Assembly (NCBI RefSeq): GCF_007833275.1
Contig: NZ_CP042241.1
Coordinates: forward strand, 2,046,001-2,110,000
Direction: 5' to 3'
DNA length: 64,000 bases
DNA from: Salarchaeum sp. JOR-1
GTDB lineage: Archaea > Halobacteriota > Halobacteria > Halobacteriales > Halobacteriaceae
Shown: positions 19,645-38,708 of the stretch, one piece after another
Layout: each line of letters begins with the position of its first letter
How positions within the stretch are numbered: the first letter of the stretch is position 1
Translations under genes and position numbers: made by a program
Notes under the pieces: generated by a model
What the model was told of the DNA's origin: nothing
Database searches by the model: none
What the model saw: only the letters and a program-made list of their open reading frames with translations

Positions 19645-19693
19645 CAGCAGTCACCAGCGCCATAGAACGGGACGTATACTCCGGAACGAATCG

Positions 19694-19700
19694 TTTTATA
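19694..19700 (+). promoter_or_regulatory. TATA box of the M42 peptidase gene
   Basis: TTTTATA, about 28 nt before the ATG at 19725; supports that start and a leaderless mRNA. Confidence 0.65.
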
Positions 19701-19724
19701 CGGTCGGTCGGCCGAATCTTGGGT

Positions 19725-33375: not shown

Positions 33376-34056
33376 ATGGACACGCTCGCCGCACTGCTCG
33401 CCGGGAACGACGCGCACGTCGCCGCGTTCCGCGACCGGTTCGACGACGTGCAGGACGCGCAGCGTCCCGATGCAGTGACGGTCTGCTGTTCGGACTCCCG
33501 CGTCCTCCAAGACCACATGTGGGGGAACGACCAACCGGGCCGGGTGTTCACGTGTTCGAACATCGGTAACCGGGTCGTCCAGCGCACCGCTGCGGGCACG
33601 GTGGTCGCCGGGGACGTGCTCTACCCCATCGCGCACACCGACACCGACCTCGCGGTCGTCGTCGGGCACTCGGGATGCGGCGCGGTCACCGCCACCTACG
33701 ACGCTATCACCACCGATATCGTCGACGAGCCCCCGGGAATCGAACACTGTATCGGCCTCTTGCGGCCCGAACTCGAGCCCTGTCTCGAGCACCTACCGGA
33801 CGGGCGCGGGCGAGCGGACACGGTGAACGACCTCGTGGAGTGCAACGTCGACCAGCAGGTGCGCGCGCTCCGCGAGAGCGAGGACGTGCCGGACGACACG
33901 ACCGTCGCGGGCGTCGTCTACGACTTCCAGAACGCCTACGACGGCGCGCGCGGCGAGGCGCACGTCGTCAACGTGGACGGCGAACGCGACCCCGAGGTGC
34001 TCCGCGACCGCCACCCCACCATCGCCGGGCGCGTCCAGCGCCGCGTCACGTACTGA
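33376..34056 (+). CDS. Beta-class carbonic anhydrase
   Basis: A 226-residue zinc enzyme interconverting CO2 and bicarbonate. Zinc ligands are readable: Cys38 in VCCSDSRVL (with the Asp40/Arg42 catalytic dyad), and His98 and Cys101 in GHSGCGAVT. The fold is complete. A TATA-like patch (TTTCTAACC near 33345-33353) lies about 27 nt upstream. It is followed on the same strand by an Lrp regulator and the dabBA pair, so a joint role in inorganic carbon supply is inferred. Confidence 0.93.
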
Positions 34057-34133: not shown

Positions 34134-34616
34134 ATGACCGAGTACGAGCTCGACGATACGGATCGAGAGATAATCTACGCGCTCCAGGAGGACGCTCGGA
34201 ACCTCTCGTCAGCCGAGATCGCCGACCGTACTGACGCGTCGTCGAGCACGGTGCGAAAGCGCATCCAGCGACTCGAATCGGAGGGCGTGATCAAGGGGTA
34301 CAGCGCGAACGTTGATTACCAGAAGTCGGGGTATCCGCTCCGGATGCTCCTGTTCTGTACGGCGCCGATTCCGAAGCGCGGCGAGCGCATCCAGGACATC
34401 CTCGATATCCCGGGCGTCGTGTCGGTGCAGGAGTTGGTCACGGGCGAGGAGAACCTGCTCGTGACGGTCGTCGGCGAGACCGACGAGGACATCACGACGG
34501 TGGCGAACGCGCTCCTCGACATGGATTTGACCGTCTCGGACGAGGTTCTCGTGCGCAGTCACGGGACGACGCCGTTCGACGACCTCGCCCGGGAGCGCAC
34601 ACCGAGCGGCGAGTAA
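34134..34616 (+). CDS. Lrp/AsnC family transcriptional regulator
   Basis: A 160-residue regulator. N-terminal AsnC-type helix-turn-helix (about residues 4-55; recognition region DASSSTVRKRIQRLESEGVI) and C-terminal RAM ligand/oligomerisation domain (about residues 68-145). Such proteins bind 13-15-bp palindromes as dimers or octamers. It lies between the carbonic anhydrase gene and dabBA, and two palindromes of suitable size occur just downstream in front of dabB, so I infer it controls that operon. Effector not deducible. Confidence 0.92.
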   Translation: MTEYELDDTDREIIYALQEDARNLSSAEIADRTDASSSTVRKRIQRLESEGVIKGYSANVDYQKSGYPLRMLLFCTAPIPKRGERIQDILDIPGVVSVQELVTGEENLLVTVVGETDEDITTVANALLDMDLTVSDEVLVRSHGTTPFDDLARERTPSGE

Positions 34617-34634: not shown

Positions 34635-34647
34635 GAACATTCTGTTC
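34635..34647. promoter_or_regulatory. Palindrome upstream of dabB: candidate operator
   Basis: GAACATTCTGTTC, perfect 5-bp arms around TTC. The same half-sites recur as GAACA at 34665-34669 and TGTTC at 34703-34707, which flank the TATA box. The size and layout fit an Lrp-family binding site; the adjacent Lrp gene is the obvious candidate. Confidence 0.5.
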
Positions 34648-34670
34648 CCGGGCGCGGCCTTGGTGAACAA

Positions 34671-34685
34671 TTTGGTCGTACCAAA
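34671..34685. promoter_or_regulatory. Second palindrome touching the dabB TATA box
   Basis: TTTGGTCGTACCAAA, perfect 6-bp arms around CGT, ending 3 bp before the TATA box and so covering the BRE position. A protein bound here would block or steer TFB/TBP. Its sequence differs from the GAACA/TGTTC element, so a second regulator is possible. Confidence 0.5.
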
Positions 34686-34688
34686 GAC

Positions 34689-34694
34689 TATAAT
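34689..34694 (+). promoter_or_regulatory. TATA box of the dabBA operon
   Basis: TATAAT; predicted transcription start near 34718, about 75 nt before the dabB ATG. Unlike most genes here, a real 5' leader is therefore expected. Confidence 0.55.
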
Positions 34695-34723
34695 AACCAG
34701 ACTGTTCGTATAGTTGGGTAGGT

Positions 34724-34773
34724 CGGGCCAGTTCGGTCACGCATCGTCCCGGTCGGACGGGACGGCTGGCCCG
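34724..34773 (+). promoter_or_regulatory. Predicted nested hairpin in the dabB 5' leader
   Basis: Outer stem: CGGGCCAG (34724-34731) with CTGGCCCG (34766-34773), 8 bp. Inner stem: CGTCCCG (34745-34751) with CGGGACG (34758-34764), 7 bp. A small TCGAG/CTCGA hairpin follows at 34778-34789, directly before the ATG. This could be a regulatory RNA structure or only a GC-rich coincidence. Confidence 0.4.
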
Positions 34774-34792: not shown

Positions 34793-36277
34793 ATGACTGG
34801 ACACGCACACGCGAACGACTCGGTACAACCCTCGGAGACGACGCCGTCCGCTTCGGGGGTGGCGCGAGCGACGACGGCCGCGGTCTGGGCGCTGTTCGCG
34901 CTCAGCATCGCGACGACAGCCGTTTCGATCGCGAGCGGATCCGCGTGGCGAGTACCGGGATACGTCGTCGTGGACGGCCTGACCGCGGTCGTCTGGACCG
35001 CCGTCACCTTCTTCAGCGCCATCGTTCACTCCTACTCCCGGCGGTACATGGCCGGGGACGCCGCCATCGACCGGTTCTTCGCGCTAACGTTCGGATTCAC
35101 GCTCGCGGTGATGGTCGTCGCCGCCGCTGACCACGTCGCGCTGTTCGCCGCGGCGTGGCTGGCGATGGGGCTGACGATGGCCGAACTCATCGGCCACGCC
35201 CGCGAGTGGACGCAGGCGCAGGCCGCCGAGACGCTCACGCGGCGCTACTTCCTCGCGAGCGGCGTCGCGCTCACCGGCGCGCTCGCGCTCCTCGCGTGGG
35301 CGACCGGAACGACCACGGTTTCCGTCATCCTCGCAGAAACCGGCGGCCTCTCCCCCGAAGTCACCTGGCTCGCGATCGGCGGGCTCTTCCTCGCGGCGAT
35401 GATTCAGTCCGCGCTGTTCCCCTTCCACGACTGGCTGCTGTCGTCGATGACCGCGCCGACGCCCGCCTCCGCCCTGATGCACGCCGGGTTCGTCAACGCC
35501 GGCGGCATCCTGCTCACGCGCTTCGCGCCCGTGTTCGCGGACATCCCTGCGGCGCTGGCGGTGCTCGTCGTCGTCGGCGCCGCGAGCGCCCTCGTCGGGC
35601 AGGCGCTCCTGCTCGTCCGCCCGGACGTGAAGCGCCGGCTCGGCGGCTCCACCGTCGCCCAGATGGGGTTCATGATACTCCAGTGCGGCCTCGGGTTCTT
35701 CGCCGCCGCCGTCACCCACCTCATCCTCCACGGCTTCTACAAGGCCTACCTGTTCCTCTCCGCCGGCAGCGCCGTCGAACAGACCGCGCCCGCGGAGAAC
35801 GCCCAGACAGGTAGGGCGCTGCCGTCGCTCGCCGTCGGCCTCGGGGCCGCCGCGGTCGGCGCCGCGGTGTTCGTCGCGCTCACCGGGAAGGGCGCGGAAC
35901 CGAACTCCGGCCTCGTCCTCGCCGGCCTCGTCGCCCTGACGACCCTGCACGCGGCCCGCGACGCCGTGGAGCGCGCGAACCTCTCCCCGGGCGCAGCGCT
36001 CGTCGCCCTCCCCGTCATCGTCGTCGTCCCCGTCGCCGTCTACGGCGTCCTGTTCAACGCCATCGCTATCGCGCTCGCGGACGCGCCGATGACACACGCG
36101 CCGACCGACCTCTCGGCCGTGCACGCCGCCGTCGCCGCCGCCTTCCTCCTCGCGTATCTCGCAGTCGAACGCGGCTGGCACGAATCCAGCAAGCGGCTCT
36201 ACGTCGCCCTCCTGAACCTCTCGCAGCCGGCTCCCGAAACCGAACTCACCACCGCGGAGGACTACAATGACGCGTGA
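34793..36277 (+). CDS. dabB: DAB inorganic-carbon complex, membrane subunit DabB (proton-conducting, NuoL-like)
   Basis: A 494-residue polytopic membrane protein of the NuoL/MrpA antiporter superfamily with about 13 hydrophobic segments. The ion-channel signature reads FPFHDWLLSSMTAPTPASAL, followed by MHAGFVNAGG. It is shorter than NuoL and, unlike Mrp subunits, is followed directly by a DUF2309 gene with 11 bp overlap, the diagnostic dabB-dabA arrangement. Established knowledge: DabB supplies cation flux that drives DabA. Start at ATG 34793 gives a polar 25-residue N-terminus before the first helix. Confidence 0.88.
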   Translation: MTGHAHANDSVQPSETTPSASGVARATTAAVWALFALSIATTAVSIASGSAWRVPGYVVVDGLTAVVWTAVTFFSAIVHSYSRRYMAGDAAIDRFFALTFGFTLAVMVVAAADHVALFAAAWLAMGLTMAELIGHAREWTQAQAAETLTRRYFLASGVALTGALALLAWATGTTTVSVILAETGGLSPEVTWLAIGGLFLAAMIQSALFPFHDWLLSSMTAPTPASALMHAGFVNAGGILLTRFAPVFADIPAALAVLVVVGAASALVGQALLLVRPDVKRRLGGSTVAQMGFMILQCGLGFFAAAVTHLILHGFYKAYLFLSAGSAVEQTAPAENAQTGRALPSLAVGLGAAAVGAAVFVALTGKGAEPNSGLVLAGLVALTTLHAARDAVERANLSPGAALVALPVIVVVPVAVYGVLFNAIAIALADAPMTHAPTDLSAVHAAVAAAFLLAYLAVERGWHESSKRLYVALLNLSQPAPETELTTAEDYNDA

Positions 36278-38708
36278 AGACCACTACCTCGCGAGCAGCA
36301 TCGAACGCGCGGCGGAGAACGTCGGCGCGGTCTGGCCGCTCCACTCGTTCGTCACCGCGAACCCCCTCTCCGGGTTCGAAGACCGGCCGTTCCACCAGGC
36401 CGTCGCGGAGGCCGAGCGGCTGTTCGGCGGCCGCGGCTACCCCTCGCCCGACGTCTTCCGGCGGGCCTGGGAGACCGGGCGGATCGATCCGGAGGCGCTG
36501 TCGAGCGTGCTGGACGACCACGGAATCGACGGCGGCCCGGAAACAGTGCTCGACGAGCTGGACGCGGGCGCGGCGGACGCGTCGAGCGAGACGGACTCCG
36601 TCTCCCGCGCCGAGACGGACGCCGAAGAAGCGGTCGACCGCGTGCTCTCGAAGTGGCTGACCGCCTTTCTCGACCAGGGGCAGGCGAAGTGGTCGATGCC
36701 GAACCGGGACGCGGGGTTCTACGCCGCGTGGCGCGAGATGGCGCCCCACGACTCCGAGATACCGGACTGCGAGAGCCCGTCCGACCTCCCGGAGTCGCCG
36801 ATAGCGGCACTGGAGAGCGTGCTGTCCGCGCACCCGCAGGGCGAGTGGGAGACGATATTCGAGCACCAGCTCGCCGCGCTCCCCGGCTGGACGGGCTTCA
36901 TCAAGCAGCGCGCGAGCGACGACGACGCGCCCTGGCAGTCCAGCCACCCGATCTCGCTGACCGAGTACCTCGCGGTTCGCCTCCTGGTGGCGGAGCGCCT
37001 CGACGCCCCGCTCCTCCCGGACGACCACGCGGAGGCCGGCGCGAGCGAGGATGTCCCGCTGTCCGAACTCTGGCTGACCGCCTGGGAGCGGAGTCACCGC
37101 GAGCGCCTGCTCGACGCGGTGTCCGACGCCGACGCCGAACCCGAGGACGGCGAGCGCGGTGACGACGCCGGTCGGCCGGACGCGCAGTTCGTGTTCTGCA
37201 TCGACACGCGCTCCGAAGTCATCCGGCGGCACGTCGAATCCGTGGGCGAGTACGAGACGTACGGCTACGCCGGATTCTTCGGGATTCCGATGCGGTATCA
37301 GGGGTACGACGCGGACGCGGCCGGGGACGCCTGCCCGCCTATCGTGGACGCCCAGCACCGCATCACCGAGCGCCCCGGCCAAGACACCGGGGAGGCGCGG
37401 GAGCGCTACGACCGCCGGCAGGGCCTCCTCGACGCGGGCCGGAACGTCCTCAAAGCCCTGAAGTCGAACGCGGCGACGGCGTTCAGTTTCGTGGAGAACG
37501 CCGGCCCGTGGTACGGCGCGGCGCTCGCCGCGCGGACGCTCTTCCCGGCCCGCGTCTACGACGCGCTCCACGACGCCGACTACGCGCCCGCCGAACGCGA
37601 GTTCTGCGAGCCCTCCATCGACTACAACCCGGACGCGGTGCACGCGCTCCGCGAAGGCCTGTCGTTCGAGGAGAAGGTCGAGTACGCCGAGAACGCGTTC
37701 GCGCTGATGGGCTGGGAGGAGTTCGCTCGCCTCGTCGTGTTCACGGGACACGCGAGTCAGACGACGAACAACCCGTTCGGTTCGAGCCTCGACTGCGGCG
37801 CGTGCGGCGGGAACGCCGGCGGCCCGAACGCCCGCGTGCTCGCCGCCGTCTGCAACGACGACGACGTCAGGGCGGAGCTGCGCGAGCGCGGGTTCGACAT
37901 CCCGGTGGACACCGTCTTCCTCGCCGCGGAACACGACACCACCACCGACGACATCACGCTCTTCGACGGGCGCGTGCCCGAGACGCACGCGGACGACCTC
38001 GAACGGGTGCGGAGCGACCTCGCGGACGCCCGGGAGCGCGCGGCCGCGGAACGGACGGACGCGATGACCGGCGACGCCGAAGACAGCGTCCGGGAGACTG
38101 AGCGCCGGGCCGCGGACTGGGCAGAGACCCGGCCCGAGTGGGGGCTGGCCGGGAACGCCTCGTTCGTCGTCGGCCCGCGCGACCTCACCGCGGACGCCGA
38201 CCTCGACGGCCGCACGTTCCTCCACTCCTACGACTGGCGGACGGACGCGGACGGCGACGCCCTGGAGGCCATCCTCACCGGCCCGCTCGTCGTCACGCAG
38301 TGGATAAACAACCAGTACTACTTCGCCACCGTGGACAACGCGGTGTACGGGAGCGGGTCGAAGGCGACCCAGAACCCCGTCGGGAACGTCGGCGTGTTCC
38401 AGGGGAACGGCGGCGACCTCATGACCGGCCTCCCCCTCCAGTCGCTGTACGCCGACGCCGACACCCCCTACCATCAGCCGCTCCGCCTCACCGCCGTCGT
38501 TCACGCGCCCGTCGACCGCGTCACCGACCTCCTCCGCGACCACGACGAACTCACCCGGCTCCTCGACAACGGCTGGATACACCTCACCGTCCTCGACCCC
38601 GAACAGGAGAACGCGCCACTCCACTACCAGGGCGACCTCGAATGGAACGCCCCGGACGAGGTCGCGGCCGCCCCGCCCCGGCAGACGGTGGCCGCCGACG
38701 CGGACTGA
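36267..38708 (+). CDS. dabA: DAB inorganic-carbon complex, zinc subunit DabA (DUF2309/UPF0753)
   Basis: An 813-residue cytoplasmic protein of the DUF2309 family. The four zinc/active-site residues known from bacterial DabA align by motif and spacing: Cys311 and Asp313 in FCIDTRSE, His495 in FTGHASQTTNNPF and Cys510 in SLDCGACGG. The bacterial protein couples vectorial CO2 hydration to the DabB ion flux, raising cytoplasmic bicarbonate. All elements are intact, so activity is expected. The N-terminal motif WPLHSFVTANPLSGFEDRPF is also conserved-looking. Extra acidic insertions (for example around residues 97-115 and 285-306) are halophilic additions. Confidence 0.92.
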   Translation: MTREDHYLASSIERAAENVGAVWPLHSFVTANPLSGFEDRPFHQAVAEAERLFGGRGYPSPDVFRRAWETGRIDPEALSSVLDDHGIDGGPETVLDELDAGAADASSETDSVSRAETDAEEAVDRVLSKWLTAFLDQGQAKWSMPNRDAGFYAAWREMAPHDSEIPDCESPSDLPESPIAALESVLSAHPQGEWETIFEHQLAALPGWTGFIKQRASDDDAPWQSSHPISLTEYLAVRLLVAERLDAPLLPDDHAEAGASEDVPLSELWLTAWERSHRERLLDAVSDADAEPEDGERGDDAGRPDAQFVFCIDTRSEVIRRHVESVGEYETYGYAGFFGIPMRYQGYDADAAGDACPPIVDAQHRITERPGQDTGEARERYDRRQGLLDAGRNVLKALKSNAATAFSFVENAGPWYGAALAARTLFPARVYDALHDADYAPAEREFCEPSIDYNPDAVHALREGLSFEEKVEYAENAFALMGWEEFARLVVFTGHASQTTNNPFGSSLDCGACGGNAGGPNARVLAAVCNDDDVRAELRERGFDIPVDTVFLAAEHDTTTDDITLFDGRVPETHADDLERVRSDLADARERAAAERTDAMTGDAEDSVRETERRAADWAETRPEWGLAGNASFVVGPRDLTADADLDGRTFLHSYDWRTDADGDALEAILTGPLVVTQWINNQYYFATVDNAVYGSGSKATQNPVGNVGVFQGNGGDLMTGLPLQSLYADADTPYHQPLRLTAVVHAPVDRVTDLLRDHDELTRLLDNGWIHLTVLDPEQENAPLHYQGDLEWNAPDEVAAAPPRQTVAADAD

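Follow-up and report, generated by a model that had tools for sequence, protein, structure and literature searches.

The short region upstream of the dabBA operon of Salarchaeum sp. JOR-1 carries repeated GAACA and TGTTC elements, a TATA box and a second, different palindrome. This raises the question of whether these elements form a regulatory array at the core promoter of dabBA and, if so, which protein may bind it and with what effect. The region was analysed within a window of 64,000 nucleotides of DNA (64 kb) from this genome and compared with related loci and with 391 genomes of the class. On sequence evidence we consider it probable (about 0.7) that this segment serves the adjacent Lrp-family regulator as the operator of dabBA, with Lrp dimers that would bind cooperatively and mainly repress. 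This reading is based on the three sites and the spacing between them, on how deeply they are conserved, and on the co-inheritance of site and regulator with DabA.

Genes of the locus

Four genes of the locus are encoded on the same strand:
33376-34056, + strand, Pro_CA beta-type carbonic anhydrase gene (Pfam PF00484, E 3.8e-25), the upstream neighbour of the cluster
34134-34616, + strand, Lrp/AsnC-family regulator gene (Pfam HTH_24 and HTH_AsnC-type; Lrp profile matches in the PDB), the proposed binder of the array
34793-36277, + strand, dabB (Proton_antipo_M and Proton_antipo_N)
36267-38708, + strand, dabA (PF10070 DabA, E 2.9e-269)

The dabB and dabA genes overlap by 11 bp, and their Pfam matches are those of a DAB operon, with DabA identified by PF10070 and DabB by Proton_antipo_M. 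The homologs of dabA and dabB likewise share one operon in the DAB/MpsAB transporters; dabBA is a predicted CO2/bicarbonate uptake pump operon. DAB pumps supply CO2/bicarbonate to many microbes, heterotrophs included. In Haloferax, HVO_2410/2411 were annotated as dabAB by homology only (PMC8305020), and no regulator or operator of archaeal dabAB was found in the open-licence papers searched. Carbonic anhydrase genes, of different subfamilies and in varied orientations, occur repeatedly beside lrp or between lrp and dabB in related loci (L025, L039, L042, L043, L047, L071, L089, L090, L095 and L097).

Three sites around the dabBA core promoter

The sequence-only reading had described a perfect palindrome followed by single half-sites, GAACA at 34665-34669 and TGTTC at 34703-34707, that bracket the TATA box, and a different perfect palindrome, TTTGGTCGTACCAAA, at 34671-34685. 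All of these letters are present at these positions. Both palindromes have perfect arms (5+5 and 6+6, respectively), but the 3-bp spacers flanked by these arms are not palindromic. The half-sites are not single, since each represents the strong half of a complete 13-bp site (sites 2 and 3 below). The array consists of three 13-bp sites of the GAAC-N5-GTTC type with a start-to-start period of exactly 30 bp:
34635-34647, + strand, site 1, GAACATTCTGTTC, site score 15.8
34665-34677, + strand, site 2, GAACAATTTGGTC, site score 16.0, the top-scoring 13-mer of the whole window
34681-34688 (limits approximate), + strand, BRE region, CCAAAGAC, placed from the position of the TATA box and purine-rich in the alignment
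34689-34694, + strand, TATA box, TATAAT, with TTTAAT or TATAAT at equal offset in relatives
34695-34707, + strand, site 3, AACCAGACTGTTC, site score 13.5, directly 3' of the TATA box; its offset of +30 is the second strongest peak in the alignment

The TATA box lies between sites 2 and 3 and abuts site 3; together with the BRE it falls in the 17-bp linker that separates these two sites. The stop codon of the Lrp gene ends at 34616, which leaves 18 bp between the gene and the first palindrome. Judging from the TATA position, transcription would start near 34716-34720, with an expected leader of about 75 nt. Three conserved 13-bp inverted-repeat sites with a 30-bp period around the BRE and TATA box constitute the layout of an archaeal Lrp-type operator.

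The density of motifs had been called unlike that of other promoters in the window. GAACA alone occurs 219 times in the 64-kb window and GAACNNNNNGTTC 15 times, and motif density alone is therefore weak evidence; GAACANNNTGTTC was found once in 64 kb, with 0.04 occurrences expected. When a matrix of the whole block was built from 83 loci, none of them from the window's family, it scored 54 bits at 34635, compared with approximately -36 bits for the best non-overlapping match in the window. With a matrix from all loci, shuffled windows gave maxima of -34 or lower. As judged from these comparisons, the strong evidence for the array is the conserved arrangement, not the single motifs. A genome-wide search with a strict pattern of the array (see below) gave a single match in the window's genome. 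There was no sign of a wider regulon in this genome, as the six other GAACANNNTGTTC sites are all inside long open frames and are without 30-bp partners. The third-best single-site match of the window, GAACGAATCGTTT at 19684-19696, is located just before TTTTATA and upstream of an ORF starting near 19719; the three-site block is absent there.

Conservation of the array

The sequence-only reading had proposed to align orthologous dabB upstream regions, and the outcome differed for its two motifs: the GAACA/TGTTC array is conserved across relatives, which strongly supports a genuine regulatory function at the core promoter of dabBA, but the second palindrome is not. The three-site block was found upstream of dabB in 104 of the 105 whole-genome loci, if spacer variants and a locus with a wrongly placed start are counted. 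All 80 named loci retrieved through their similarity to Lrp have it too, from genera including Halobacterium, Halosimplex, Natrialba, Natrinema, Haloarcula, Natronomonas, Halorubrum and Haloferax; the two sets share species. When the site model was averaged over 100 loci, the strongest site peaks were at 0, +30 and -30/-31. These loci were chosen by the GAAC...GTTC pattern, so that the GAAC/GTTC letters of sites 2 and 3 are partly selected, whereas this selection does not touch site 1, the offset of the TATA box, the other columns or the loci retrieved via Lrp similarity. The best upstream site was at offset -30 or -31 from site 2 in 80 of approximately 100 loci.

Site 2 is the best conserved of the three, and site 3 is nearly equal to it. 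Typical relatives carry AACCATAATGTTCTATAAT as site 1 and GAACGATTTG followed by TTC, TGA or GTA at site 2, after which come TTTAAT or TATAAT and the (T/C)GTTC of site 3. Where a gene has been inserted between lrp and dabB, the array remains about 120 bp before dabB. One locus (L017, genome G049) has the Lrp gene and no recognisable array, which counts against the operator reading.

The strict pattern GAAC-N20-TWTAAT-N9-GTTC was searched in the 391 genomes of the class. It matched 167 of them, mostly with exactly one match each, and the reversed control pattern gave zero matches in the same genomes. The matches were found in 166 of the 237 genomes with DabA and in 1 of the 154 without it (p 3e-51, counted from listings; the genomes are related, so that this p-value overstates their independence). 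The lone match in a genome without DabA (G233) is dissimilar to the array.

The second palindrome

The other palindrome had been regarded as a different motif in its own right:
34671-34685, no strand assigned, second palindrome, TTTGGTCGTACCAAA, at the overlap of site 2 with the BRE region

It is exact in the window and in a sister genome of the same genus (L002), and two further loci (L008 and L039) retain 6 of the 7 pairs. At least 6 of the 7 pairs are thus present in 4 of the 100 loci, against a background of 0.3%. This distribution could be taken as a sign of a separate operator of the window's lineage, at which another factor would act on the BRE. However, the palindrome is absent from the other 96 loci, and its left and right arms fall within site 2 and the BRE region, respectively, each of which is conserved for other reasons; such an operator is therefore very improbable. 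On the symmetric site model derived from the alignment, a 13-mer of the TTTGGTCGTACCAAA stretch scores -19, compared with 13.5-16.0 for the three sites of the window, and the palindrome was rejected as an independent element on this score and on its occurrence in only 4 of 100 loci.

The adjacent Lrp regulator

The adjacent Lrp is the natural candidate to bind the array. Its N-terminal part is an AsnC-type winged helix-turn-helix (PF13404, 46.7 bits with a cut-off of 27; PF13412, 58.1 bits with a cut-off of 21.9). For a C-terminal RAM (effector/oligomerisation) domain, no Pfam match was obtained. The profile alignment to Lrp structures spans positions 4-121 and reaches into the region of this domain, and the predicted C-terminal order is beta-alpha-beta-beta-alpha-beta in a low-confidence model (pLDDT 59.6). 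The profile matches in the PDB include FL11 of Pyrococcus horikoshii (1ri7/2e1c) and LrpA of P. furiosus (1i1g). None of the named Lrp equivalogs (LrpA1, Lrp, LysM and LrpA) was matched, the best NCBIfam score being 56 bits with a cut-off of 250, and 29 Lrp orthologs have a mean column identity of 82%, with an invariant stretch STVRKR. On these sequence comparisons, the window's Lrp belongs to a separate, highly conserved subfamily. N107 is an invariant Asn of the loop TGE(Q/E)N in the RAM domain, at a position occupied by Asp in the best PDB match; the ligand may be unusual, or there may be none.

An Lrp ortholog was found in 240 of the 391 genomes (E up to 1e-42) and DabA in 237. Both are present in 234 genomes, DabA only in 3, Lrp only in 6 and neither in 148 (p 5e-96, again counted from listings). 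Wherever the Lrp gene was found among the inspected loci, it is upstream of dabB and on the same strand. In Halobaculum litoreum, the Lrp gene and the array are plasmid-borne (NZ_CP126157.1, L231). The Lrp-only genomes comprise one with a strong ortholog, G035, and five with weaker matches of approximately 50% identity. The Lrp ortholog of G035, a genome without a DabA match, has 70% identity and is convergent to genes for a Prismane/CO dehydrogenase-family protein and a CooC-like ATPase (L245:2023-5383), and no array was found near it, which is neutral as to the identity of the binder.

Alternatively, an Lrp paralog or an unrelated factor could bind the array, the adjacent Lrp being a merely co-inherited neighbour. 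Adjacency by itself is no proof of binding, and the genome contains at least seven further Lrp-like matches. In addition, one locus (L016, G036:C74) has a clear array upstream of dabB and no close Lrp ortholog in its genome, which is 98% complete; since the assembly is fragmented and the contig starts only some 1 kb upstream, Lrp is possibly missing through an assembly gap. The joint presence of the adjacent Lrp and DabA in 234 genomes, against 9 discordant ones, and the retention of array and Lrp together across families make another binder rather unlikely.

Although many Lrp proteins autoregulate, sites were not enriched in front of lrp (3% vs 4%), another point against the operator reading.

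The last base of site 2 was compared with the residue that precedes STVRKR in Lrp. Ser is associated with C in 44 of 53 cases and Asp with A in 75 of 86. This correlation, though strong, was rejected as a proof of binding, because it corresponds to only two changes on the DabB tree and is phylogenetically confounded. On this tree (L001-L118), one type of cassette combines Ser before STVRKR with TATAAT and a site 2 ending in C, and the other combines Asp with TTTAAT and a site 2 ending in A. Each type is found in several families, which suggests that the lrp-dab cassette has been transferred as a unit. One locus, L018, combines a DabB of the Ser clade with Lrp and promoter of the Asp type.

An inverted repeat in the dabB leader

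A further element is present between the promoter and dabB:
34724-34773, + strand, leader inverted repeat, CGGGCCAG (34724-34731) and CTGGCCCG (34766-34773), identified from arm counts and folding z-scores

Of 134 non-redundant leaders, 91 (68%) carry GACC..GGTC arms, compared with 10% of coding windows. The consensus of the leaders of L155-L234 is CGACCRG..CYGGTCG, of which CGGGCCAG..CTGGCCCG is the variant in the window. Pairing at the positions next to the core was slightly more frequent than after an exchange of arms between loci; among 500 such exchanges, the maximum equalled the observed sum. Compared with shuffled sequences, the leaders fold with a mean z of -1.5, against -0.2 for coding controls, although many Natrialbaceae leaders do not fold better. 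A search of Rfam with the leader gave no match, and automatic alignment yielded no consensus fold across all leaders; alignments of subgroups show an outer stem that is mostly invariant. An RNA stem-loop is plausible, and a DNA element is possible.

Possible mode of control

Lrp proteins of archaea target groups of imperfect palindromes that lie two or three helical turns apart, and FL11 was crystallised on a 13-bp site (PMC2995911). The activators among these proteins occupy a tightly constrained position immediately upstream of the BRE, whereas LrpA represses by binding beside the TATA box, on its downstream side, where it blocks the polymerase (PMC2995911). The dabBA array fills both positions, that of the activators with two sites and that of the LrpA repressor with one.

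What we infer about Lrp binding, dimer cooperation, ligand and direction of control is as follows. Three Lrp dimers would bind 30 bp apart, one per 13-bp site, and, as 30 bp is about three helical turns, they would lie near the same face of the DNA. Sites 1 and 2 would anchor the complex cooperatively, and the dimer at site 3, abutting the TATA box and before the expected start, would block RNA polymerase. In another oligomeric or ligand state, the site-2 dimer beside the BRE could help TBP/TFB. Carbon or metabolic status would in this way govern dabBA expression through Lrp. The main effect would be repression, which is only slightly favoured over activation or dual control.

The adjacent Lrp could instead be essentially an activator, its site-2 dimer recruiting TBP/TFB as in Ptr2, with site 1 in support and site 3 in a minor or dual-control role. 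In favour of such a role, the best conserved site keeps a fixed distance from the BRE and lies immediately before it, like the activator sites of Ptr2, LysM and Ss-LrpB (PMC2995911). Against it, site 3 has almost the same conservation and is placed between the TATA box and the expected start, the position of repression by P. furiosus LrpA; a Ptr2-type activator would have sites only upstream of the BRE, and site 3 is downstream of the TATA box. We regard an essentially activating Lrp as possible and as the less likely explanation. A more elaborate model, in which the N107 Lrp subfamily would sense a signal linked to inorganic carbon rather than an amino acid, in-phase dimers would clamp the BRE and TATA box as a dual activator/repressor and the leader stem-loop would add a layer of control at the RNA level, is speculative and improbable as a whole.

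Relation to known operators and significance

With the array read as an Lrp operator, its closest counterparts differ from it in part. In the P. furiosus LrpA operator, the Lrp protein adjoins the downstream side of the TATA box (PMC2995911), the position that site 3 has, but that operator controls the regulator's own gene, whereas the dabBA array has two extra in-phase upstream sites and a neighbouring transport operon as its target. The Ptr2, LysM and Ss-LrpB operators are regular imperfect palindromes, one of them just before the BRE (PMC2995911), which sites 1 and 2 fit; unlike these, the dabBA array has its third site downstream of the TATA box and straddles the core promoter. The 13-bp palindrome bound by the FL11 dimer of P. 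horikoshii (PMC2995911) has the same length as the predicted dabBA sites, whereas the GAAC/GTTC half-site letters are particular to the subfamily of the window's Lrp. By sequence comparison, the array is classed as an Lrp-type operator whose three-site layout is unusual and whose conservation is unusually deep.

The candidate regulator-operator pair would be common to most DAB-bearing haloarchaea, including Haloferax species. Its unusually clear and deeply conserved in-phase Lrp-type sites flanking an archaeal core promoter may be useful for understanding how regulators of the bacterial type work on a eukaryote-like transcription apparatus.
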